Assembly: GCA_024226935.1 (NCBI GenBank) | Contig: JAAELK010000225.1 | Coordinates: 1 to 64,000 of the forward strand | Source of the DNA: Desulfobacteraceae bacterium | GTDB taxonomy: Bacteria > Desulfobacterota > Desulfobacteria > Desulfobacterales > Desulfobacteraceae | Reading direction: 5' to 3' | Length of the DNA: 64,000 bases | Part shown: positions 1 to 12,444 of the stretch, one piece after another | Layout: each line of letters begins with the position of its first letter | Position numbering within the stretch: position 1 is the first letter of the stretch | Notes under the pieces: generated by a model | The model's database searches: none | Told to the model about the DNA's origin: nothing | What the model saw: only the letters and a program-made list of their open reading frames with translations | Made by a program: the position numbers and the translations under genes

Positions 1-123
1 GAAACTAAAGGTCGTGGGAAGCTTGGCGGGCAGCCAGGAAAAATTTGTGTTCCCATCAAAGATATTTGGGTCTTTCCTCTTGATAAAAAGTTTAGAGTTT
101 TGCTTAAATCAACTCATGAATGA
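1..123 (+). CDS. 3' end of an unidentified gene (partial)
   Basis: An open frame runs from the window edge to a TGA at 121-123 and gives the last 40 residues of a protein, basic and ending in KSTHE. I do not recognise the family. It converges on the truncated cyclase gene, whose stop codon begins at the very next base. Because that cyclase ends in mid-domain at this junction, this ORF could belong to inserted or rearranged DNA, but nothing in the 40 residues shows a transposase or integrase motif. Confidence 0.4.
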   Translation, partial: ETKGRGKLGGQPGKICVPIKDIWVFPLDKKFRVLLKSTHE

Positions 124-1428
124 CTAACCCGAATATTTACGCTGTTCAAGGATGATATTTAATTTAATCAGTCGTTTTCTCATTTCCAAAGCTGCCTGCA
201 CCGCCATTTCCGGATGATCATCAAACCCGACAGGCGCTCCGAAAACAGCCTCAATCTCATCTCCCACATATTGGAGAATAAGCCCCCTATGTTCTTTTAC
301 GGCCGGGGTCATTTCGTTAAAATACTGGTTTAAGATTTTCACCACCTGGCGGGGGTGATTTTTTTCCACAAGACCCGTAAAATTTCTCAAATCGGAAAAG
401 AGCAAGGTAACCCGTTTCATCTCTCCTTCCAGGGAAATTTTACCCGACATGATTTCATCCCGGATTTCCTTACCCATGTATCGACCAAAGGATTTTTTTA
501 CCCGTTGGCTTTCATTTAAACTGCGAATCATATCATTTATCCCCTGGGCCACATCACCCAATTCATCATTGGACACGATTTCCACCCGGGCATCCAGGTC
601 ATTATTTTCCACGGCCTTGATGGTCTTTTTGATCTGAAGCAAGGGAGTAGAGATACTTTTTGCTAAAAAATAGGCCAGAATCAATGCAATGGTCAACGAA
701 TCCATGGAAAGAAAGAACAGTTCCCAATAAAGGGAAGAGATCAACTGACTTCTGGTCACTGCATCGGCCAGGGAAAGCTGCTGAATATTGGAAACAATAG
801 TGGTCGCAATGATGGGAAACGGTATCAAAATAATCCCCAGCATAACCACTAAAAATCGTTTTCTCACACTGATTTTGAAAACATGTTTAACCCGGTTTAA
901 ATGACCTTCTGGAAAGAACTTAGGGATGTGGGAACGCCAAACATTTTCAAGGACAAAAAAAAGAACCATACAGGTCACGCCACCGCCGAGAAGAATGATT
1001 CCCAAAAACCGCCTGAAACAAAATACCAGATCCTGTGTTGCCACATTAAAAATCTTTGCCGTGATCAATGGTTCCAAAAAACCAAAGATAAAACCCCCCA
1101 CTATCCAAATCAAAAAAGAAGCCATCGTAACAACCATGGGGTACTGAATGGCTCTCCTTTGGAGATGGTAAATCATGAAAGGATCAAACTCAGAGATATC
1201 CCGACTGCCGTCGGCCACTTCATACAAAGATCTGGACGATTTTCTTTTTAACAAGACAAAAGCCAGAAGAGAAAGCGTTGCCATACCTGCAAAAAAAAAC
1301 AAAAGATCATAATAGTCCGGAATCACTGGATTTTGTTTAACAAAGGGCTGGATAATTCTAAAATAGATGAAGGTGGAAGATGCACCTAACATATTACCCA
1401 CCCCCAATAATATTCCTATTTTTTTCAT
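124..1428 (-). CDS. Membrane class III adenylate/guanylate cyclase, C-terminally truncated
   Basis: The 434-residue protein has about six hydrophobic segments in residues 1-258, a HAMP-like linker (about 258-310) and the first half of a class III nucleotide cyclase domain from about residue 338. Both metal-binding aspartates are present, in FSDLRNFT near residue 345 and YVGDE near residue 386. The chain then ends at about residue 434, just before the region that normally carries the HTG segment, the substrate-recognition residue and the NxxxR transition-state pair. None of the three frames downstream on this strand restores it. Its ATG overlaps the stop of the upstream PP-loop gene by four bases, so it is the last gene of that operon. 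Catalysis as a homodimer seems unlikely without the missing half. Domain calls are firm; loss of function is inferred. Confidence 0.85.
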   Translation of the reverse strand: MKKIGILLGVGNMLGASSTFIYFRIIQPFVKQNPVIPDYYDLLFFFAGMATLSLLAFVLLKRKSSRSLYEVADGSRDISEFDPFMIYHLQRRAIQYPMVVTMASFLIWIVGGFIFGFLEPLITAKIFNVATQDLVFCFRRFLGIILLGGGVTCMVLFFVLENVWRSHIPKFFPEGHLNRVKHVFKISVRKRFLVVMLGIILIPFPIIATTIVSNIQQLSLADAVTRSQLISSLYWELFFLSMDSLTIALILAYFLAKSISTPLLQIKKTIKAVENNDLDARVEIVSNDELGDVAQGINDMIRSLNESQRVKKSFGRYMGKEIRDEIMSGKISLEGEMKRVTLLFSDLRNFTGLVEKNHPRQVVKILNQYFNEMTPAVKEHRGLILQYVGDEIEAVFGAPVGFDDHPEMAVQAALEMRKRLIKLNIILEQRKYSG

Positions 1429-2567
1429 ATTGCCTTTTTTAACAATTTTTCAATGGTATCAGCCAGATCATCCCTGCCCCGCTGCCTCAACAAAGGAATC
1501 ATGGGCCTGTAAAATGGAGGCCGAACCCTGATGGTAATATCAAATTGTTCAATATCCTCTGGATTCACCTCATCTTCAACAAAAGCCCGGGTCTTGTGCA
1601 ATATTCCCAGGGCGGTCAACTCTGTCATGGTCCGAACACATTTTTCACATTTACCACAGTTCAAACGGTCCGGGACATTAGCAAGACAAACCCTGAAATT
1701 TTGAAATGCCGCATCCCAGGAAGAGACTATTCTTATTTTTTCAAGACGGGACATTTCATAATCCCGGTGGCGAAGTCTCAGTCCATAACTTGAATATTCC
1801 GGATCCAGCAGCGGATGGGACCCACAGGGATGCAAATTAGGAATATCATAGGATGATCCGATAAACATCAGATTTATCCGATTGCTGAAAGCATGGGCCA
1901 TGGCAGCCAGAACAGCCCCAAAAAAACTGTCCAGCCATAATTTGCGCTCATCACACAAATGACGAATATTGGTATAGACCGGAATCAACTGGGTACCTGC
2001 ATCCCGGGTAATTTTTAAAATTGCATCCATGGCCCGGTCAAATACATGATATTTACTCCCCCGCTCCACCACACCGCCGATATCAAAACCGTGGAGAAAA
2101 AAACTATCTCTTACATATCCCGGATGCCCCTTGGAATAATTAAGTCGATTTAAACGAAGAGCAGCAAGGGAATCCATCCCCCCGGACATGACCATACCAG
2201 CCCTGACAGGATTCAAGCCAGGCAGTGTTTCCAGGGTTTTGGCCTCAATGGTTATGGGAGTATACCGGCTATTTTCCGGCCCCAACCTTGTCCAATGGGA
2301 CAAGATATTCATGGCCACACCTAACCCTTCCTTAAGAAATGGACAGATCTTTTGTCCAATGAAAATTCTTTTTTCTCCCAGATGAAGGGCCGGCAAAAGA
2401 CAACCCACCAAAAACGCATCGGGGTTAGCCTCAAACCCAGATGCAAAGGAAAGGGGAGTCTTAATAAATACACTTTGTTCGGGCCGATTGCAATCTTCAA
2501 AAATCACCCTGGCCCCAGCCGTAACAAATTGACTGTCCCGGGTCAAATTAAAATCAATAATTTTCAT
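1425..2567 (-). CDS. QueC-like PP-loop ATP-pyrophosphatase family protein
   Basis: The 380-residue protein carries a PP-loop motif, SGGMDSLAAL, near residues 126-136, and a zinc-type cysteine cluster, NCGKCEKC, near residues 302-310. The second resembles the C-terminal CxxCxxC cluster of 7-cyano-7-deazaguanine synthase (QueC). PP-loop enzymes adenylate a carboxyl or carbonyl group before amide, nitrile or thio transfer. The protein is longer than QueC (about 220-240 residues), and the first 120 residues match nothing I recognise. No other queuosine gene is nearby, so a QueC role is doubtful. It lies 34 bases after the ATP-grasp gene and overlaps the cyclase gene by four bases, so it probably acts on the product of the two upstream enzymes. 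The substrate is unknown. Confidence 0.75.
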   Translation of the reverse strand: MKIIDFNLTRDSQFVTAGARVIFEDCNRPEQSVFIKTPLSFASGFEANPDAFLVGCLLPALHLGEKRIFIGQKICPFLKEGLGVAMNILSHWTRLGPENSRYTPITIEAKTLETLPGLNPVRAGMVMSGGMDSLAALRLNRLNYSKGHPGYVRDSFFLHGFDIGGVVERGSKYHVFDRAMDAILKITRDAGTQLIPVYTNIRHLCDERKLWLDSFFGAVLAAMAHAFSNRINLMFIGSSYDIPNLHPCGSHPLLDPEYSSYGLRLRHRDYEMSRLEKIRIVSSWDAAFQNFRVCLANVPDRLNCGKCEKCVRTMTELTALGILHKTRAFVEDEVNPEDIEQFDITIRVRPPFYRPMIPLLRQRGRDDLADTIEKLLKKAI

Positions 2568-2601
2568 TGGCTTTTTTTCTTATTTCCATCTGGTTAAATT
2601 C

Positions 2602-3510
2602 TCATAAACTTTTATTTGAAACGATAGAGGATAGATAATCAATAATCTGCCAGGCAATATCTTTTCCGGTTGCTGCCTCCAGACCCTTAAAACCTGGCGA
2701 ATAATTTACCTCAACCACGAGGGGAGGTCCAGTTTTTTCAACCATCATATCAACCCCGGCAATTTCAAGACAAGAAACCCTGGCTGCATCAAGAGCCAGA
2801 GTCTCCCATTCCCTTGGAGGATCAATGGCTATCGCCTGACCATTTTGATGAATATTGGCCCTGAAATCACCCGGGGAAGGTTCAAGGGCCATGGCTCCGG
2901 CCAGGCGACCTCCGATCACCAGCATTCTCAGATCCTGGCGCCCCTCAGGTTTGATAAATTGCTGAACCAGCATGCCTTTCAAAGGGTTAAGATGGGTATC
3001 AAGGTATATGTTTGCCTGACTTTCATTCTCAATCTTTTCCACACCGTCTCCGCCCATACCATCCACTTGTTTAGCAATAACCGGAAATCCTCCCAGATGG
3101 GCAACCGCTTTAAAAAAACCAGGCTTCCGGGTAATAAAACAGGAATTTGGAACCCGTATCCCTGCGGCTGCCAGAGTCTGGAGGGTAAGATATTGATTTC
3201 TTGCAATGGTCACCCCCTCAATTTTATTAACCAGGGCAATATTCATCTGCATAAAATGACGGAGCAGAACAAACCCATATTCCCCCATGGGAGATCCCTG
3301 GCGGGGTAATATCACATCGGGAACCCGGCCTGAAATATCCATGGGAAAACCAATAAAATCAAAAAGACCAGATTTGCCCATATCCATGGCACAGGTAATT
3401 TCATAGGGGTTGATCAACAAAATTTGATGCCCCAGATCATTTGCCGCCTCCAAAAAACGCTTATTGGGATGAAAATCAAATCCATTGACAGTCATTATTC
3501 CAATGATCAT
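2602..3510 (-). CDS. RimK-type ATP-grasp ligase
   Basis: The 302-residue protein has the ATP-grasp layout of the RimK/LysX/MptN group: a pre-ATP-grasp N-terminal half, the glycine-rich loop MGGDGVEKI after the KQ lysine near residue 150, the segment EGRQDLRMLVIGG, and the metal-binding end VVEVNYSPGFKGLE. Such enzymes form an acyl phosphate and join a carboxylate to an amine, for example adding glutamate or other amino acids to a peptide or metabolite. Its ATG overlaps the stop of the upstream GNAT-tailed gene by four bases (3507-3510), which suggests translational coupling. The pairing with a GNAT-tailed protein and a PP-loop enzyme suggests an amide-bond-forming pathway. Substrates cannot be read from the sequence. 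Confidence 0.85.
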   Translation of the reverse strand: MIIGIMTVNGFDFHPNKRFLEAANDLGHQILLINPYEITCAMDMGKSGLFDFIGFPMDISGRVPDVILPRQGSPMGEYGFVLLRHFMQMNIALVNKIEGVTIARNQYLTLQTLAAAGIRVPNSCFITRKPGFFKAVAHLGGFPVIAKQVDGMGGDGVEKIENESQANIYLDTHLNPLKGMLVQQFIKPEGRQDLRMLVIGGRLAGAMALEPSPGDFRANIHQNGQAIAIDPPREWETLALDAARVSCLEIAGVDMMVEKTGPPLVVEVNYSPGFKGLEAATGKDIAWQIIDYLSSIVSNKSL

Positions 3511-5492
3511 TTGTCATTATCCCCTTGATTATCAATCATATGTTCCGGCATCCACACTCCCATTTGTTTATTTAATTTTCCACTGAAATAGGTCAGGATT
3601 TTTTTCGTATTATTCCGAAGGGCAATTTTCTGGGTGACCAGATTCTCCTCACTGATAATGGAAAACACCTTATAATCTTTTACCCTTTTGGTCAGACCCT
3701 CCAATAATTTTGCCCCCACTCCCAGGGCACGGTACTCGGGTCGCACAGAAGTATATCCCCTTTCCACAAAATTGGTAAAATCAACCCCTGTCATCTGTTT
3801 AAGCCGTTTTATAAAACTTGCTCTGGGGTGCTTCAAACTGGAATTTCCAATAATCACTCCATTTTCCATGGCATAACCGATCATATAAGCCTTTTCAAGA
3901 TTGGATCTAACATGGGTGATGTCAACAGATCCACCTGCTTCCACCATTTTACAAATTTCCTCCAGGACTCCAGAGGGAAGTTCCTTGGGTGACTGGTAAG
4001 TAAAAAGGATTTGCCTTCCAAGACAAATAACCCGATTATTTTCTAAATCCACCCGGAGATGACCCAATGATTTGCTGTTTATTTGACTCAAATACACCAG
4101 CAAGTAACCAGGATCTCCCAAAAATTGCCAAAAGGGAATCCCAGGCAAGGGAGCTACACCGGCATAATCCATAAACCCGGGCGGTATAATCGGAGCAAAT
4201 AATTCATCCCGGGTCAAATCCCGGACTGTATCTTGATTTGTATCTTGGAAGGAATGAACAATATTAGGGCTATTTGCAATAAATTTTATCCGATCAATAT
4301 CACTGTTGCCTTGTTCCTTGAATAGATCCGAACCGGATAAATGGTTCCATATACCAAGCTTTGATGCCTCCCATAGGGTTTTTTCAGAAATTTTAGATCT
4401 ATCTGTTTGCCAATGAATCAATCTAAGCCCAGCTGTAAACAGATCCGACATTTCTTTTATATATCCCGGAAAAAGCTCTCCTGTCCTGACCTGTATACTA
4501 AAAAAGACACGGGGTTGTTTTATTGAAAACCAATGGGCCAGATGCCGGCATATGTCCCCCGGGAAAATTTGGTCCGCCTTTTCTTGAATTTTTCGGCCCG
4601 GCGATTCTATTTTTTCATCAATATCTGAATTAGAAGATGCCTGGACAAATACAAATCCCCGGACACCCAGGTTATGGACCTGATCTTCCAGAAAGTCTGA
4701 TAAAGCAAATGGATCCTTAAAAAATAAAGGATAAACCAAAATTATCTTTTCAGGAGTTAGATACTGATCCAAGGGAACTGCCCTGAAATCGGGCAGACTA
4801 TTTTTAAGATCCATTTTCACCCCATGGATCTGGTTGACCCAATCCCCCAGCAGGACAAGGCCTTTTTGGGCCTGATTCCAGATAAGATGATCAAAGTATC
4901 GAGTGTCCGGAAGAGGAAATCCTCTTTTTATCATTGCCACCACCCTGACACCGGGATAATGTTCTTTAATGAAAGCTGCCATTATCCGTGCAGCAACCGC
5001 CTGGGCCTGGCAAGAAACAAAAAAAATTACCGTCCCCGGATCATACCTGTCAAGTTGGCTTGCCAACCCTTGTTCGCACAACAACACAAAAGGATTGCCA
5101 TGGGCGCAAATATCTGTATTGGATGCCAGGATCAAACAACTATCTATTTTATTTTTACAAGATATAAAATACTGGGGATCATAAAACTTATTCCCTTTAA
5201 ACTCATCCATATCAACCACGGTTTTATAAGTGGCTTCATACAACTTTTTCAACCGAAAATAAGTTTGCCTGGAAACCTGTCCTGAATCTCTCTTTTTTTG
5301 AATTTGTTGAAAATAAAACAATAGACTTGTTTTAGAAAAAAGGTGGGTCCTATAAAAATCAAGATTTGCGTCATAGTGACCTATAGTAAATCCGGAACCG
5401 GACAAACTCCCCGCAACCACGGCCGCATCCCAACAGGGCAACATCGGACTGGCTGCCGGGGGATGAATCAATAAAATAGTAGACGATATCAT
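3507..5492 (-). CDS. Large protein with cobalamin-binding-like N-terminus and GNAT acetyltransferase C-terminus
   Basis: From the ATG at 5492 the product is 661 residues. It begins with STILLIHPP and then a stretch of the kind seen in the B12-binding domain of radical SAM enzymes, but no CxxxCxxC cluster follows, so it is not a radical SAM enzyme. The middle 300 residues are unrecognised. The last 130 residues look like a GNAT acyltransferase, with the acyl-CoA loop RALGVGAKLLEGL in place. A longer reading from a TTG at 5627 is open (706 residues) but has a less protein-like N-terminus. Neither start has a strong ribosome binding site, although AAGGGG lies upstream of 5492 at a long distance. 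It is the first gene of the operon and is coupled to the ATP-grasp gene. It may transfer an acyl group to the small molecule or peptide handled by that ligase. Confidence 0.7.
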   Translation of the reverse strand: MISSTILLIHPPAASPMLPCWDAAVVAGSLSGSGFTIGHYDANLDFYRTHLFSKTSLLFYFQQIQKKRDSGQVSRQTYFRLKKLYEATYKTVVDMDEFKGNKFYDPQYFISCKNKIDSCLILASNTDICAHGNPFVLLCEQGLASQLDRYDPGTVIFFVSCQAQAVAARIMAAFIKEHYPGVRVVAMIKRGFPLPDTRYFDHLIWNQAQKGLVLLGDWVNQIHGVKMDLKNSLPDFRAVPLDQYLTPEKIILVYPLFFKDPFALSDFLEDQVHNLGVRGFVFVQASSNSDIDEKIESPGRKIQEKADQIFPGDICRHLAHWFSIKQPRVFFSIQVRTGELFPGYIKEMSDLFTAGLRLIHWQTDRSKISEKTLWEASKLGIWNHLSGSDLFKEQGNSDIDRIKFIANSPNIVHSFQDTNQDTVRDLTRDELFAPIIPPGFMDYAGVAPLPGIPFWQFLGDPGYLLVYLSQINSKSLGHLRVDLENNRVICLGRQILFTYQSPKELPSGVLEEICKMVEAGGSVDITHVRSNLEKAYMIGYAMENGVIIGNSSLKHPRASFIKRLKQMTGVDFTNFVERGYTSVRPEYRALGVGAKLLEGLTKRVKDYKVFSIISEENLVTQKIALRNNTKKILTYFSGKLNKQMGVWMPEHMIDNQGDNDK

Positions 5493-5727
5493 ACTAACCA
5501 ATATATATTTTTTTTTAATAATACCCAACACCCCTTGCAGATCAGCTTTGATTTGACATCTTCCACAGATAAGCTGCAAAGGGGTGCTTTTTCTTATATG
5601 CACAAGATCATCATTTTTGCAATGCAATGGTAATTTTACTTTGGCCTGTCAATTGTCTCCTTATATCAAACCCGCTGCCTTGCAATTTAAAAAAATCCCC
5701 CGATTTGACTTTGGATAGCTATAGGAA

Positions 5728-5753
5728 AAACCCCGGTGGTAGCTTTGGGGTTT
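5728..5753. other. Inverted repeat in the divergent intergenic region
   Basis: AAACCCC at 5728-5734 pairs perfectly with GGGGTTT at 5747-5753 across a 12-base loop. It lies 30 bases before tamB in the space between two divergent operons. No T-run follows on either side, so it is more likely an operator or a 5' leader hairpin than a terminator. I found no convincing -35/-10 pair in the 5493-5782 gap. Confidence 0.4.
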
Positions 5754-5782
5754 ACCAAAGGTCTTGTCAAAAAAGATAAACC

Positions 5783-8700
5783 ATGGTAATGACTTGGTTT
5801 TTTTTAATGGATGGTATGGTGTTAAAGCCAAAGAATAAATTAGGTGTCATTGCAGGTTTTGTTTGTTGTGTACTACTGGCTACCGTTTGGGCGGGCAGTT
5901 GTTTTCTAAAAACCAACACCACCAAGACCATTTTGTTACACCTTATCAGTGAGAAGGTTCCAGGCCAGGTTGTCTTTGATAAACTGGAAATCCATCCTCT
6001 TTTAGGGCAGATCAATTTACTGGGACTTCAACTCCGTGGGCCCCATGGAAAATCTCTGGCTCGCATGAAAAAAATGAGTCTCGATTTATCCTGGACAAGC
6101 CTGCTAACCGGCAAAATCTGTTTTTCCTCGGTTATGATGGACTCTCCCAGGTTAAATCTTAGTCTATTGAAAAATGGTTCCCTTGCCCCAGGCCTTTCTT
6201 CAGTTAAAACTACAAATGGATCTTCCTGGTTCTTTTCAGATATTCTTGTTAAGAAATTTGTTTTAAAAAATGGAAGCCTCGTACTGGAGGTGCCTGGTAA
6301 AAACTTGAATCTATCGGTTTCAGGTCTGGATGTTCTGGTATCAAATTTTGATCTTTTGCATGGATCAGCAAAATTCAAAGCAAACTTTGAGACCGGAAAC
6401 ATCACAACCCGGGAAAAATCCATTTTGCTTAATCCGACCCGTATGGAGGCTGATTTTAAAGATGGAGGATTATCCAATATTTTTGTCCATTTAGACTCCA
6501 ATGACCTTGATATGAAGATCCTGGGCTCTGTCAAGGATCTTTTTAATTGCCCTGTTTTTGATATTCGTCTTAAGAGTATAATGGATCTTGAACAGGCAAC
6601 TTTTACTGCAGGTATAAAACCCAAGGCTTTCCAGGGACAATTGCTAACCAACCTGTCCATTAAAGGAGATCTTGACAATCCGGTGATAACAGGTTCCATC
6701 CAATCTAAGAAAGCCTGGGTCAAGGGTTATCTCCTTGAAAACCTTATGCTGGAATTTAAGATAAAAAACCGAATGGCAACAATGCTGCCATCCCATCTTT
6801 CTTCCAAATTTGGAGCTCTGGACCTGGAAGGAAAAATAAACCTTGAAAAGGTTTTTCCCCATGGATTTTTAAAGCCCTTTGATTTAAATGAACTTTCGTA
6901 TAATATAAATGCACTTCTTTCAGGGACAAAATTATCTGTCCTTTCCGGGATAAAACCAGGCACAAAAGGTAAAGTGACATCCAGGATAAATTTTTCCGGT
7001 AGGGGTGTTGATCCTGAAAAAATAAAGGCGGATATAAAAGCAAAGCTGAGCGCAACTGGGCTCAGACTAAAAGGTATGCCAACATCAATGGCTGCCATGA
7101 TCAACACCGATATTGTTCTTGATAAAAAAACTGCCAGAATTAATTTCCTTGATTTGAGGGCCCCGTCAATTATACTGACAGGTAACGGCCAGGTGGATAT
7201 TACCACCATGAAAATTTCAGGCAAACTCAATCTTAAGATGGGTGATATTGGATTATTGAACAGGCTCACCCATTTAAGACAGAAAGGACAAATCAGTGCA
7301 AAAATAGAGATTAACGGGCCATTTTCATGTCCTGGGGTCTCTTTGACGGCTTCAGGCTCAAATATCGAAATCAATAATGTTGTCCTGGGAAATCTGACTT
7401 TAAAGGGTAATCTTGACAGGACCGGCAGAGTCAGGGTTGACAAATTTTTACTGGAAAACCATGGATCGATTCTTAATGGTACTGGTTGGTTGGAATCGCT
7501 AAAAAAGATGCTCAATGGAAATAGAAAAAATTTAATTCATTTTGATGTGAAAACTGGAAACCTGAATCTCGCCAATTTCATGCCGACCTCTTTTTTTAAA
7601 GGAAAACTTAATGGCAAGATCATGGTAAGAAGCAATCTTGTGAAACCCATCGTAAGGGCTGATATCAAAGGATATGATCTTGCTTTTAAGAAGGTACAGA
7701 TCAAGGATGCTACACTTTCCCTTAATGGGAAGATTCAAAGCCGTTTTTCCAATGTGGATGGTGTTTTAAATATTGACGCAGATTCCATAAAAGTTTTTGA
7801 CCAGGCAAGGGGCAAATTTTCTTCAAAATTTTTGCTCCGGGGTAGCCTTAAGAACCCGCAGATCAAGGGCAAACTTGATATTCAAAAAATTATGATCTTA
7901 AATGAAAAACAAAATCCAATGGATTTGACTGTTAAACTGCAAAACAAAAAACTTGAAATAAAGGCAGATATAGGCCCCATGATGGAAGGGGTGTATCACA
8001 TGGATACCAAGGTATTTGCAGTCGATTTTAATGTGGATGGTTTTAATTTATCACCCTATTTTGCACTCATGGGCCGGTCAGGATTCACAGGAGATATCAC
8101 CGGCAGTATCAAGGCAAAAGGCCGGATTGACAAACTTAAACAGATCCAAGGATCAGCTGATTTTTCTAAAATTATGATTGCCTTTGCAGGCAACCCTTTT
8201 ATCCAGACAAAAGATTCGCGACTTACCTTTAAAAACGGACAATTGTGCCTTTTGCCCACCCAGATTAAGCTCTTGAAAAAAGGCATCCTTATGGTGAAAG
8301 GCCAGGCAGACCTTAGCGGTTCCCTCGATTTTAAAGCCTTGGGAGACATCCCCTTGGAGCTGCTCAATCCCCTGGTGGACAAAATAAAATTTGCCACCGG
8401 CAATGTCCGCATCACAGCTTCCCTTAAAGGCAGTATTTACGACCCTATTATCCAGGGAGATCTTTTATTCAACTCCCTTGGAATGGGGGTTGATGGACTT
8501 GATCAGGATTTTAAAAATATGAAAGGCCATATTAAGTTCACCCCGGATAAGATCGAGATTTCAGGGTTTGAGGGCTATATGGGTCAAGGCCGTTTTGACC
8601 TTGGCGGCAGTGTGATATTAAAAGCCTGGGCACCTGAAAAATTTAATCTGAAAATTAATGCCCATCAGCTCAATCTGGATATTCAGGATTTAATGGACTT

Positions 8701-9610
8701 GACTTTCAATTGCAACCTGAACTTTGTCGGCACGGATAAAGCGTCCCAATTAACCGGCGGGGTTATGTTACTTGGGGGCAGCAGGTACCACAAGGATGTT
8801 AAACTGAACCTTATTACCATGGCCACAAGACAGACAAGACAAATCCCTTCAGAAGGAAAAAAAGCAATGGGCTTTTTGCACAATATCAGTCTGAACCTGG
8901 ACGTCGGTAGCCGTGAGCCTTTGTTGGTGGATAATAACCTGGCTTATCTGGAGATCAGTCCCAACTTGACAATCAGGGGAACGGCTGCAACCCCTGTACT
9001 GATAGGTCGCGCCCGGGTGGACGGAGGGCGTATTCATTTTCAAAGGGCTGAACTTGAAGTACAAAAAGGGGTAATTAACTTTGTTAACCCTTATAAAACA
9101 AAACCTGTCTTAGATATTGAGGCAAAAATGGAAATCCGGGCCTGGACCATTACCCTGGCCATTTCAGGATCTCCTGACAATCTGAATTTACAACTATCCT
9201 CCGACCCTTTTGAACAGCGTATGGATATTCTTTCATTAATTCTCCTTGGCAAGACCACCCGGGAATTTGGAGATACAAACGGTGGGCGGCGGTTTGGTTC
9301 TGATGAAATTATTGCCAATGTTATGGCAAGTTCCCTGGAAAAAAGTTTAAAAGAGGCTACAGGCCTCGATTATTTGAAAATTACTCCCCAGATACAGGAA
9401 CTATTAGCTTCCTCCGGAGTTGATGTCATGCTTGGAACAAATCTGTCCAGGCATATCAACGTAAAATACGGGGTGGATGTCAGAAAAGGCAAAGTTGTTC
9501 AGCGGGTGATCACCTCTTATCAATTACTCGAAAATCTTTTGTTAGACGGGTACCGGGATACAGATGGAAGATTTGGTGGTGAACTTAAATATCGACTGGA
9601 GTTTAGATGA
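5783..9610 (+). CDS. tamB: TamB-family inner-membrane/periplasmic translocation protein
   Basis: The 1275-residue protein has one N-terminal membrane anchor (about residues 20-38) and then a very long run of repetitive beta-rich sequence, as in TamB/AsmA-like proteins. The last 350 residues match the TamB (DUF490) domain, including GRARVDGGRI, a segment ending FEQRMDILSLILLG, and a C-terminus ending in a phenylalanine-arginine. TamB spans the periplasm and works with an Omp85 protein in outer-membrane protein assembly or lipid movement. Here the gene order is tamB then the Omp85 gene, with a four-base ATGA overlap (9607-9610). Possible starts are 5783, 5807 and 5816; none has a clear ribosome binding site, so the exact N-terminus is uncertain by about ten residues. 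Confidence 0.9.
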   Translation: MVMTWFFLMDGMVLKPKNKLGVIAGFVCCVLLATVWAGSCFLKTNTTKTILLHLISEKVPGQVVFDKLEIHPLLGQINLLGLQLRGPHGKSLARMKKMSLDLSWTSLLTGKICFSSVMMDSPRLNLSLLKNGSLAPGLSSVKTTNGSSWFFSDILVKKFVLKNGSLVLEVPGKNLNLSVSGLDVLVSNFDLLHGSAKFKANFETGNITTREKSILLNPTRMEADFKDGGLSNIFVHLDSNDLDMKILGSVKDLFNCPVFDIRLKSIMDLEQATFTAGIKPKAFQGQLLTNLSIKGDLDNPVITGSIQSKKAWVKGYLLENLMLEFKIKNRMATMLPSHLSSKFGALDLEGKINLEKVFPHGFLKPFDLNELSYNINALLSGTKLSVLSGIKPGTKGKVTSRINFSGRGVDPEKIKADIKAKLSATGLRLKGMPTSMAAMINTDIVLDKKTARINFLDLRAPSIILTGNGQVDITTMKISGKLNLKMGDIGLLNRLTHLRQKGQISAKIEINGPFSCPGVSLTASGSNIEINNVVLGNLTLKGNLDRTGRVRVDKFLLENHGSILNGTGWLESLKKMLNGNRKNLIHFDVKTGNLNLANFMPTSFFKGKLNGKIMVRSNLVKPIVRADIKGYDLAFKKVQIKDATLSLNGKIQSRFSNVDGVLNIDADSIKVFDQARGKFSSKFLLRGSLKNPQIKGKLDIQKIMILNEKQNPMDLTVKLQNKKLEIKADIGPMMEGVYHMDTKVFAVDFNVDGFNLSPYFALMGRSGFTGDITGSIKAKGRIDKLKQIQGSADFSKIMIAFAGNPFIQTKDSRLTFKNGQLCLLPTQIKLLKKGILMVKGQADLSGSLDFKALGDIPLELLNPLVDKIKFATGNVRITASLKGSIYDPIIQGDLLFNSLGMGVDGLDQDFKNMKGHIKFTPDKIEISGFEGYMGQGRFDLGGSVILKAWAPEKFNLKINAHQLNLDIQDLMDLTFNCNLNFVGTDKASQLTGGVMLLGGSRYHKDVKLNLITMATRQTRQIPSEGKKAMGFLHNISLNLDVGSREPLLVDNNLAYLEISPNLTIRGTAATPVLIGRARVDGGRIHFQRAELEVQKGVINFVNPYKTKPVLDIEAKMEIRAWTITLAISGSPDNLNLQLSSDPFEQRMDILSLILLGKTTREFGDTNGGRRFGSDEIIANVMASSLEKSLKEATGLDYLKITPQIQELLASSGVDVMLGTNLSRHINVKYGVDVRKGKVVQRVITSYQLLENLLLDGYRDTDGRFGGELKYRLEFR

Positions 9611-12444
9611 ATAAAATATCTATTTACAGCCGTACCTGTAGCCTGAAAGCCTTGCTAATCTGGAGTATAATTATTTTATTTGGCTTTGTTAAACCTGGAT
9701 TTGCCGCAAACCCGGAAAAACATCCCAAAGAAACTATTTTTCAAATTGATGTCAAAATCCTTGGGATAAAAGGGGATACAACTTTTTGGAATTCCATTGC
9801 CAGGGATTTAATTTCATTAAAACCCTTGGACCCATATAATAATGATCTAATAAAACAGGCGATTGTCGGTCTTTCCGATTCAAACCTTTTTCAATCCATA
9901 CATGTATCCGATCCTGTAAAAACTACCAGGGGCTTGAAAATCACCTTTGAGCTTATTCCCTACGGGCGTATTAAGGATATCAAGATCTACAAGGCCTTTC
10001 CTCTGTTTGACCGGGAAGTACTCGATATTATGACCCTTTATAACGGGGAACTTTTTTCTAAAAAAAGCCTTGAACAGCAGAGCAGTCGTGTGATCACCCT
10101 TTTTAAAAAACAGGGTTTTATTGATCCCAAGGTCACCCTATCCGCCCAAAAGGATGGGTATGATGGAAATTATCTGATCTCGGTTCATATTAATAAAGGG
10201 GACTTTTTCCGGGTAAACAAGGTGGAGATCCAGGGAAATAAAAGTTTTTTATCATCCCGCTTAAAGCTGAGGACTGAAACCTGGAAAGCCTCTGTCCTGC
10301 TCGGCAGCGCCAAACGATTTATCCAAAATAACCTGGATGATGATGTTAAAGAACTTATCGCATTTTACCGAACCCAAAAATTTGCCGATGTCGCAATTAC
10401 CCCGGAAGTGATAAGGGATCGTAAAAAAAAACAAGTGGATGTGATCTTTCATGTTGAGGAAGGCCCCAAATACCTGATCGACTTTAAAGGGAATAAAAAA
10501 TTTTGGGACTATACCCTGAATAAAGAAATGACCCTGGAAAAAGACGGAAATAAAAACAATTTTGCCCTTGGAAAAAGTATCCGGAATCTGAAAGAAAAAT
10601 ATACTATGAAAGGATACCCGGACGTAAAGATAAAATCCGGAATAAAAGAAAATACTTTATCCAGGCCTCCGGAAAAACAAGTGACCATCTCCATTAATGA
10701 AGGCGATAAATATTGTGTTTCAAAAATTGATATCCTAGGAAATCGATCTATCACACAAAAACAAATTTTTAAAAATATTCTGACCCAAACTTCGACTCTT
10801 AGCAATTGCAATATTTATGTGGCAAATCAACTTGATAAAGACATAAATACCCTTCGAGAACTCTATTTTACAAAAGGATTTATCGGGATCAAGATTGATA
10901 AACACATCCGGTTTTTAGATGCTGATAATCAGGACAAAACAAAAGTCAAACATGTACAAATCGAACTTGTCATTGATGAAGGGATCAGAACAAGGGTTGA
11001 AAAGGTTCAGTTTAAAGGTCTGTCTGCCCTGTCCCGGGACAGGGCATTGGAGTTTATCACCCTGAAATCAGGAATTCCCTTTGATCCCCATATGATGGAA
11101 AAAGATGAAAAAAATCTGGGGCAAAAAATTTCCGAGTTAGGGTATCCCAACAGCTGGGTAACGGGCGTTGTAAAATTTAGCCCTGACAGATCTGGAGCAA
11201 TTTTGACCTATACCGTGGAACAAGGCCACTATGTAAGGGTAGGGCATATATATTATCAAGGAAATTTCAGGACAAAACAATCCATTCTTGACAATAAAAT
11301 GCAGATCTTTTCCGGTGAACCCTTTTCCCTGGTCAAATTACTGGAGAGCCGACAGAACTTAATGGAAATTGCAGCCCTCAGTTCAGTGCGGTTTACTACC
11401 ATAGGCCTGAACAACAATGCTTCAAAGGTAGATATAATCATAGTGGTTGAAGAAAAGAAACCTTATTTTGTAGAAACAGGCACAGGTTATGATACCCAAC
11501 GCCGTTTTTATCTCGACTCAACGGTGGGAGATCATAACTTTCTGGGTCGTAATTTGGATCTTCAACTAAAAGGGGAGTACAGTCAGATCGGGTATAATTG
11601 GAACATAGCATTAACGGAACCACAGCTTTTTTACACCAAAATTTTGTCCAGCACCCGGTTTTTTGGTGGAAAACAAGAAGAGTTTAACAAGGATTATGGA
11701 ATCAAGACCCGGGGGATCGCCCAAAATTTTTCCCGGACTTTTTTATCCAACAAACTGATAGTAAACCTAGGCCTGATGCATGAATCCAGAGATCAATACC
11801 CGACCCAGTACCGGCAAGACACTGAAACAACCCAATATGATTCACGAAATATTATCACCATAAGTCCGGGTATCAGCTACCGAACTATAGATTCCTATAT
11901 TAAACCCAGTAAAGGTCATATTTCCACTTTTAACATGGAACTTTTAAAAGGACTTGATAATGACCTGGACGATTTTATTAAATATCGCCTGGAAACCAGG
12001 TATTATCATACTGTGTTTAAACCATTGGTTCTTGCCCTGCGGGGACAATACCAGTTGATCCAACCCTATGGAAGCAACAGAGTTGTGCCTGAGGATCAAT
12101 TATTTTTTTTAGGTGGAAGTTCAAGTGTCCGGGGTTTTGATGAAAACCTTTTGCAATATGATTCAACAGGCAACGCAGTAGGGGGAAGAGAGACTATCTT
12201 AGGAAGCATCGAAGCACGGTATGATCTGGGATTAAATTTTGAACTTTCCACCTTTTACGACATAGGAGCAGTAAAGAAAACCCAAGGCAAAGATGCAGAT
12301 CATACATTCCGTGACTCCATCGGCCTTGGGCTTAGTTATATGACACCCATAGGTCCCATTGGATTATTGTATGGCTGGAAACTGGACCCCAGGGCCAACG
12401 AAAGTGCAGGCAGGTTTTCTTTTTCCATGGGGTATACCTTTTAA
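9607..12444 (+). CDS. tamA: Omp85-family outer-membrane protein with about seven POTRA domains (TamA/BamA-like)
   Basis: The 945-residue protein begins with a signal peptide ending near GFAA (about residue 34). The periplasmic part, to about residue 600, reads as seven POTRA-like repeats, each starting with a strand such as RVNKVEIQGNKSF or CVSKIDILGNRSI and ending with a VxEG turn. A 16-strand-type beta barrel follows, with the Omp85 loop-6 motif SSSVRGFDEN and a C-terminal aromatic residue (GYTF). Classical TamA has three POTRA domains and BamA five, so this is neither by length. Fusion of start and stop codons with tamB argues for a TamA-like partner. The gene symbol is given on context; a BamA-like role in outer-membrane protein insertion is possible. 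Confidence 0.85.
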   Translation: MNKISIYSRTCSLKALLIWSIIILFGFVKPGFAANPEKHPKETIFQIDVKILGIKGDTTFWNSIARDLISLKPLDPYNNDLIKQAIVGLSDSNLFQSIHVSDPVKTTRGLKITFELIPYGRIKDIKIYKAFPLFDREVLDIMTLYNGELFSKKSLEQQSSRVITLFKKQGFIDPKVTLSAQKDGYDGNYLISVHINKGDFFRVNKVEIQGNKSFLSSRLKLRTETWKASVLLGSAKRFIQNNLDDDVKELIAFYRTQKFADVAITPEVIRDRKKKQVDVIFHVEEGPKYLIDFKGNKKFWDYTLNKEMTLEKDGNKNNFALGKSIRNLKEKYTMKGYPDVKIKSGIKENTLSRPPEKQVTISINEGDKYCVSKIDILGNRSITQKQIFKNILTQTSTLSNCNIYVANQLDKDINTLRELYFTKGFIGIKIDKHIRFLDADNQDKTKVKHVQIELVIDEGIRTRVEKVQFKGLSALSRDRALEFITLKSGIPFDPHMMEKDEKNLGQKISELGYPNSWVTGVVKFSPDRSGAILTYTVEQGHYVRVGHIYYQGNFRTKQSILDNKMQIFSGEPFSLVKLLESRQNLMEIAALSSVRFTTIGLNNNASKVDIIIVVEEKKPYFVETGTGYDTQRRFYLDSTVGDHNFLGRNLDLQLKGEYSQIGYNWNIALTEPQLFYTKILSSTRFFGGKQEEFNKDYGIKTRGIAQNFSRTFLSNKLIVNLGLMHESRDQYPTQYRQDTETTQYDSRNIITISPGISYRTIDSYIKPSKGHISTFNMELLKGLDNDLDDFIKYRLETRYYHTVFKPLVLALRGQYQLIQPYGSNRVVPEDQLFFLGGSSSVRGFDENLLQYDSTGNAVGGRETILGSIEARYDLGLNFELSTFYDIGAVKKTQGKDADHTFRDSIGLGLSYMTPIGPIGLLYGWKLDPRANESAGRFSFSMGYTF

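Follow-up and report, generated by a model that had tools for sequence, protein, structure and literature searches.

The window analysed here, a 64,000-nucleotide stretch of contig JAAELK010000225.1 (C225) from a Desulfobacteraceae bacterium, carries on its minus strand an operon encoding a GNAT acetyltransferase protein, a RimK-family ATP-grasp ligase, a PP-loop ATP pyrophosphatase resembling QatC and QueC, and an interrupted nucleotide cyclase. The GNAT and ATP-grasp genes share 4 bases (3507–3510) and the ATP-grasp and PP-loop genes are separated by 34 bases (2568–2601), while the cyclase gene (minus-strand open reading frame 1428..124) overlaps the PP-loop gene by 4 bases (1425–1428) and breaks off at the contig end. 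Re-derivation of the open reading frame (ORF) coordinates reproduced the three minus-strand genes, the 4-base overlap and the 34-base gap reported in the original prediction, and the five motifs it had named (RALGVGAKLL, MGGDGV, EVNYSPG, SGGMDS and CGKCEKC) are all present. The start of the GNAT protein is taken as the ATG at 5492, which is conserved in the close relatives L074–L076; the mechanical ORF starts at TTG 5627. The features of the operon are the following.

3507–5492, minus strand: GNAT protein (661 residues), with a degenerate B12-binding/radical-SAM-fold N-terminus and a C-terminal GNAT acetyltransferase
3528–4040, minus strand: GNAT domain, residues ~485–655, with motif RALGVGAKLL (assigned with VIA-align)
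2602–3510, minus strand: RimK-family ATP-grasp carboxylate-amine ligase (302 residues; PF08443, TIGR00768)
1425–2567, minus strand: QatC/QueC-like PP-loop ATP pyrophosphatase (380 residues), with an N-terminal domain common with QatC (AlphaFold2 model, VIA-align)
2169–2186, minus strand: SGGMDS pyrophosphate-binding loop of the PP-loop protein (sequence; 51 relatives)
1638–1688, minus strand: QueC-type zinc-binding motif C-x9-C-x2-C-x2-C of the PP-loop protein (51 relatives)
141–1428, minus strand: membrane adenylate/guanylate cyclase with HAMP and class III domains, interrupted, fourth gene of the operon (homologue residues 1–431)
1–140, minus strand: end of an insertion element that interrupts the cyclase and ends the contig (18-bp inverted repeat at 123–140, 8-bp target duplication at 141–148)

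Genes linked to the operon lie beyond the window. An 18-bp inverted repeat and the 8-bp direct repeat TGAACAGC are found at the ends of two contigs of the same genome (window 1–148; L157 1–147), and the second of these, C552 (L157), begins with the part of the cyclase that the window lacks (homologue residues 427–519, against 1–431 in the window). Thus, C225 and C552 are almost certainly adjacent in the genome and separated by an insertion element inside the cyclase gene. The element, deduced from the two contig ends with its interior missing, seems to have split the adenylate cyclase gene and so to be responsible for the break between the contigs; the close relatives L074 and L075 are likewise without an intact cyclase at this site. 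The gene order of C552 after the cyclase end is TLC, FGE-like, second cyclase, radical SAM, GshB-like ligase, SBP5 and OppBCD. The first of these genes (L157 446–3658) is strongly linked to the operon and encodes a membrane protein that resembles TLC ATP/ADP transporters and carries HEAT repeats and a cyclic-nucleotide (cNMP)-binding domain. On the opposite flank, divergent TamB-like and Omp85/BamA-like genes of a translocation and assembly module (window 5783–12444) begin upstream of the operon and did not stand out as conserved neighbours among relatives.

The arrangement of GNAT, RimK-like and PP-loop genes is far beyond chance, since the three are found together in family after family. The PP-loop alignment, used to scan 84,980 species genomes through two peptide patterns that reach only close relatives, returned 80 PP-loop loci, nearly all from Desulfobacterales, with further loci in Desulfohalobiaceae, Geothermobacter and Deferrisomatales. 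Near the PP-loop gene of these 80 loci lie genes for the RimK-like ligase (at least 70), GNAT (at least ~66), the TLC/HEAT/cNMP protein (at least 51), the FGE-like protein (at least 43), a cyclase (at least 37), the GshB-like ligase (at least 35) and SBP5 (at least 27), the counts being lower bounds because many contigs are short. The three main genes are adjacent and co-oriented in most complete loci, with median gaps of 2 and 17 bases, confirming that they stay together across Desulfobacterales, which the original prediction had set against the case in which they are never adjacent. In the window's own family, L049 displays the order GNAT, ATP-grasp, PP-loop and cyclase, with 56–71% identity for the three main genes. 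In another family (L044 5907–11149, L057 8517–15630, L112 and L120), genes for a sigma-54 activator, a thioredoxin, an octahaem cytochrome-like protein and a DsrE-like protein lie between the GNAT and RimK-like genes.

In one draw of 194 genomes from the order, strong matches to GNAT and to PP-loop pick out an identical set of 24, with one exception, G107, which has decaying copies. The GshB-like ligase is encoded in 22 of these 24 carriers and in one other genome (Fisher p ~1e-25, related genomes not being independent), and sits with the TLC/HEAT/cNMP membrane protein and a peptide-type ATP-binding cassette (ABC) transporter. In the GshB-only genome (G120) the GNAT and PP-loop genes are missing from the locus, and a third ATP-grasp of 459 residues, weakly similar to the Asp-Met ligase LdmS, follows the RimK-like gene (L165 1585–2964). 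The three adjacent genes of the original prediction are real, and the system is larger than the set it described, comprising also cyclases, the GshB-like ATP-grasp, the TLC/HEAT/cNMP protein, the Opp-type transporter and the FGE-like protein. A conserved short ORF for a substrate peptide, which it had suggested looking for, was not recovered among nearby ORFs of at least 80 residues, the shorter ORFs of the flanks not having been searched systematically, and the gaps within the operon are too small to hold one. Clustering of the neighbouring ORFs of at least 80 residues returned mostly antisense shadows of known genes and chromosomal housekeeping genes. A PP-loop/ATP-grasp fusion suggested by a 929-residue frame in G364 was rejected as an open frame in GC-rich DNA. 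The same explanation, a long open frame, applies to the apparent TLC-GNAT overlap within 1649 residues in L137.

The PP-loop protein scores below the cut-off of Pfam QueC (PF06508; E=0.16, 11.9 against 22) and has no match in NCBIfam. Its AlphaFold2 model (predicted local distance difference test, pLDDT, 91) is closest to the structure of QatC, with a VIA-align Z of 15.6 over 295 aligned residues spanning model residues 1–375. Cap9 and QueC (3bl5) align through the core only, at Z 12.3, and many thiolases, NAD synthetases and the nitrile synthetase ArtA lie near Z 9. The structural claim depends on VIA-align because Foldseek alone gave no E below 0.001. In 51 relatives, Gly-129, Gly-130, Asp-132 and Ser-133 are invariant and Ser-128 nearly so, and the four zinc cysteines and Arg-202 are also invariant. 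Cys-205, Cys-248, His-251 and Asp-255 are further conserved positions. The protein thus displays the SGGxDS loop, the arginine of the VPxRN position and the zinc motif of QueC (preQ0 synthase), the last with a spacing of x9 instead of the x8 of the QueC family (C-x8-C-x2-C-x2-C), but differs in an extra N-terminal domain of ~118 residues and in not keeping YPDC. With QatC and Cap9, which belong to qatABCD and to the type IV cyclic-oligonucleotide-based antiphage signalling system (CBASS), it shares the QueC-family PP-loop core, and its likeness to QatC extends to the N-terminal domain and an invariant HP motif. In contrast, the QatC zinc motif is varied (C-x19-CGxCxxRR) where the PP-loop protein keeps the four-cysteine C-x9-CGxCxxC, and linkage is to ligases and a GNAT, with no defence partners recognised. 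QatA, QatB and QatD were found neither among the clustered neighbours nor in PADLOC, and a defence system was set aside for want of any PADLOC match.

The motifs YPDC and YxQxHxxE serve substrate recognition in QueC (PMC13329287), and YPDC binds deazaguanine in both QueC and Cap9 (PMC13329287, PMC13279940). Neither is present in the PP-loop alignment, in which the YPDC position reads HPLL (by eye, from flanking anchors), and a profile comparison with the genome's own QueC aligned the PP-loop only. Because YPDC appears replaced, 7-carboxy-7-deazaguanine (CDG) would be an unlikely substrate. The true QueC of the genome sits elsewhere (L001), beside a QueE-like gene; on this ground and on the apparent loss of the deazaguanine-binding residues the queuosine pathway was rejected. 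Characterised members of the QatC/Cap9/QueC fold activate a carboxylate as its adenylate, which ammonia or an amine then attacks (PMC13279940).

The resemblance to QatC over nearly the whole length, N-terminal domain included, would suit a protein-modification system in which the PP-loop enzyme acylates the N-terminus of a partner protein, as Cap9 does and as proposed for QatC, and the GNAT and RimK-like proteins produce or lengthen the tag. The reaction of Cap9 couples a carboxylate to a glycine at the N-terminus (PMC13279940), and RimK itself modifies a protein. Such a system is nevertheless distinctly unlikely here, given that the Qat partners and a PADLOC match are missing, that the deazaguanine-binding residues appear replaced in the motif-anchored reading, and that a conserved N-terminal Met-Gly occurs in none of the set's encoded proteins that were read.

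QatC-like PP-loop proteins ~42% identical to that of the window also occur as tandem pairs in other Desulfobacterales (L158 8153–10719, L159 7220–11665 and G010:C1:3675892–3678307), where the loci are of polysaccharide type and the neighbours include ABC-2 transporters, sulfotransferase-like proteins and an oxidoreductase of the GMC type. Similarly, a full-length relative of 39% identity is encoded on the Nostoc plasmid NZ_CP151100.1 (50223–51398; L162), beside transposases and near an exopolysaccharide cluster. That relatives of 25–43% identity reside in polysaccharide clusters (Gloeothece, Azospirillum and Nostoc; tandem pairs of G010, G177 and G187) is consistent with a role in modifying surface polysaccharides or lipids, in which uronic acids would be amidated by the PP-loop enzyme and amino sugars acetylated by the GNAT. 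This role is very improbable for the operon, whose conserved set is without glycosyltransferases and contains instead two ATP-grasp ligases and a peptide-type transporter.

The RimK-like protein is assigned to its family by PF08443 (E=1.8e-34) and by TIGR00768 rimK_fam (158.9 against a cut-off of 143.4), and shares the ATP-grasp fold and family signature with the alpha-L-glutamate ligases RimK, MptN, CofF and LysX. In contrast to these, it lies under the cut-off of every function-specific model tested and has different operon partners. It scores 136.6 against the S6-specific RimK model PRK10446.1 (cut-off 331) and is also far below the cut-offs for MptN, LysX, CofF and the NAGGN synthetase. 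Lysine/arginine (LysX/ArgX), methanopterin and F420 ligase identities were rejected on these scores. With LysX far under its cut-off and the genome's own QueC located elsewhere, the match to queuosine or lysine synthesis that the original prediction had named as evidence against itself was not found.

The GshB-like ligase linked to the operon contains both GSH-S domains and matches Escherichia coli glutathione synthetase (1gsa) over its full length, with a score just below the glutathione synthase equivalog cut-off (268.4 against 272; 258.4 for the copy of the window's genome). At the C-terminal motif, E. coli GshB has SPTCIREIE and the linked ligase SPGGIPRIN. Most carriers are without a glutamate-cysteine ligase (PF04262 in 0/25, PF04107 in 4/22), and in those genomes the enzyme therefore does not catalyse the second step of ordinary glutathione synthesis. 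If the product were a low-molecular-weight thiol or redox cofactor resembling glutathione, the ATP-grasps would link glutamate and cysteine to a third residue, the GNAT would N-acetylate the product, like MshD in the mycothiol pathway, and the last amide would come from the PP-loop enzyme. The near-threshold, full-length GshB match and the thioredoxin, DsrE-like and multihaem cytochrome genes inserted in the operon point in this direction; the missing glutamate-cysteine ligase, the altered C-terminal motif and the restriction of the redox genes to one family make a thiol unlikely.

By Pfam the GNAT domain of the window is marginal (E=0.05) and NCBIfam has no match for the protein; the stand-alone GNAT of L049 clears the PF00583 cut-off (21.0 against 20.7), and the identity is clear by structure, with VIA-align Z up to 16 to N-acetyltransferases. 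The N-terminus matches the B12-binding and TIM-barrel fold of AprD4 (6fd2; Z 14.3 over 302 residues) and of TokK and OxsB (Z 13.8, VIA-align), and the CxxxCxxC cluster motif is absent in all 66 relatives examined. Among relatives the radical-SAM-like domain is full length, shortened or gone, and the GNAT domain, the only part kept in all, stands alone (~177–183 residues) in many genomes. Because of this variable retention, the GNAT is predicted to be the working part of the 661-residue protein and the B12-radical-SAM domain to be dead. The description of a GNAT-tailed protein was thus right for the C-terminus, the front part being a degenerate B12-radical-SAM domain and only the GNAT always kept. 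In L049, of the window's own family, an intact B12-radical-SAM protein with CxxxCxxC (5538–7040) adjoins a stand-alone GNAT, and a fusion followed by decay, leaving the dead copy fused elsewhere, is possible. The three distinct chemistries claimed for the operon are real, as judged by family models and structure matches.

The transport genes bring in a further candidate. A secreted metallophore or peptide signal, exported by the TLC/MFS-like protein and retaken with metal through SBP5-OppBCDF as in the staphylopine (Cnt) system, would account for the combination of biosynthesis genes, a transporter-like membrane protein and an SBP5-type importer, which resembles cnt, and the permeases match both nickel and oligopeptide models. 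It is quite improbable, as nicotianamine synthase and opine dehydrogenase were not recognised, matches to Cnt models lie far below cut-off, and the TLC protein has a cNMP-binding domain and resembles nucleotide exchangers.

The closest chemical parallel is the synthesis by asnO-ngg (PA3459–PA3460) of N-acetylglutaminylglutamine amide (NAGGN), a salt protectant induced by osmotic stress. Ngg attaches an acetyl group to one glutamine and links it to another, and AsnO forms the terminal amide (PMC8070244). Solutes of this kind have both charged groups, amino and carboxyl, masked (PMC1224877). The operon shares with this pathway GNAT acylation, ATP-dependent peptide-bond formation and PP-loop amidation. 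In contrast, its GNAT and ATP-grasp are separate and non-orthologous (TIGR03103, the model of the fused GNAT/ATP-grasp synthetase, scores 24.4 for the RimK-like protein against a cut-off of 569), its PP-loop enzyme is QatC/QueC-like and not asparagine-synthetase-like, and the system adds a second ATP-grasp, cyclases and transporters. The minimal set of L137–L139, from Geothermobacter and two other genomes, consists of TLC, GNAT, PP-loop and GshB-like ligase, and these genomes contain nothing closely homologous to the RimK-like protein; the pathway is therefore reduced there to one GNAT, one ATP-grasp and one PP-loop enzyme, the NAGGN formula. The view that no pathway with this set had been described stands for the gene set itself, no description of which was found in open-literature searches mostly not covering subscription papers, but not for its chemistries, which NAGGN synthesis uses with non-orthologous proteins.

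Because the chemistries of the operon are those of NAGGN synthesis, an N-acylated, amide-ended short peptide or amino-acid conjugate is proposed as the product. We tentatively favour, with somewhat less than even confidence, a ribosome-independent pathway to a small N-acylated, amide-capped peptide-like metabolite, with NAGGN chemistry performed by non-orthologous enzymes. The small-molecule or peptide pathway of the original prediction thus remains the best inference, the chemistries being real, the genes staying together and the queuosine and lysine matches failing. One or two ATP-grasp ligases, the RimK-like enzyme of the operon and the GshB-like enzyme of the linked operon, would join amino acids through acyl-phosphate intermediates, glutamate being the likeliest substrate of the former. 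The GNAT would acylate a free amine from acetyl-CoA, and the QatC/QueC-like PP-loop enzyme would adenylate a carboxylate and join ammonia or an amine to give the terminal amide. The presence of two ATP-grasps in most carriers suggests a product one residue longer than that of the minimal version. The TLC/HEAT/cNMP membrane protein and the SBP5-OppBCDF peptide-type ABC transporter would move or recover the product; the latter might recover what leaks, and the cyclases and cNMP-domain protein might place transport under cyclic-nucleotide control, coupling it to signalling, both being weaker suggestions. Gene identity, folds, conservation, linkage and co-occurrence are demonstrated by the analysis, and from them we infer the order of steps, the substrates, the product, the direction of transport and the role of the pathway. 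The chemistry class is fairly well supported, and osmolyte, thiol, metallophore and signal are all candidate roles, a compatible solute with a salvage transporter being the most economical.

Several observations weigh against this pathway. The true NAGGN amidotransferase model TIGR03104 is above cut-off in 14 of 194 genomes and in 0 of 24 carriers, a zero overlap that is not significant (P=0.15), and mutual exclusion across genomes was not retained. Some families hold both NAGGN genomes (for example G035 and G092) and carriers (G000 and G192). Carriers have no demonstrated link to salinity, the titles being mostly those of sediment metagenome-assembled genomes without matched negatives for comparison, and the name of one (L123) we take to denote a freshwater aquifer. 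Cap9 acts, and QatC is proposed to act, on the N-termini of proteins and not on small molecules, and the more distant PP-loop relatives belong to clusters for polysaccharides. Two ATP-grasps are encoded in many carriers, exceeding the need of NAGGN synthesis, and TLC-family proteins are annotated as nucleotide transporters. Transporter specificity is unreadable from sequence, and no SBP5 equivalog cut-off was reached.

The conserved pathway is real and apparently undescribed, its individual folds being known. That a QatC-type PP-loop protein, of a kind otherwise studied for protein modification against phage, acts as a small-molecule amide synthetase, and that by a convergent NAGGN-like route it produces, jointly with the GNAT and the RimK-like and GshB-like ligases, a capped peptide that is a major solute, cofactor or signal in Desulfobacterales, is a possibility we hold a little less firmly than the pathway itself. 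If true, the acylate-ligate-amidate logic of NAGGN evolved twice. QatC-type PP-loop proteins, whose phage-defence reaction is unsolved, would gain a metabolic relative perhaps easier to assay, and the pathway is testable now in the cultured carriers Desulfosarcina widdelii, D. alkanivorans, Desulfocicer vacuolatum, Desulfatitalea alkaliphila and Geothermobacter hydrogeniphilus. Desulfobacterales are major sulfate reducers of marine sediment, and an apparently undescribed multi-gene pathway across many of their families would hint at an unrecognised metabolite in a large biomass.

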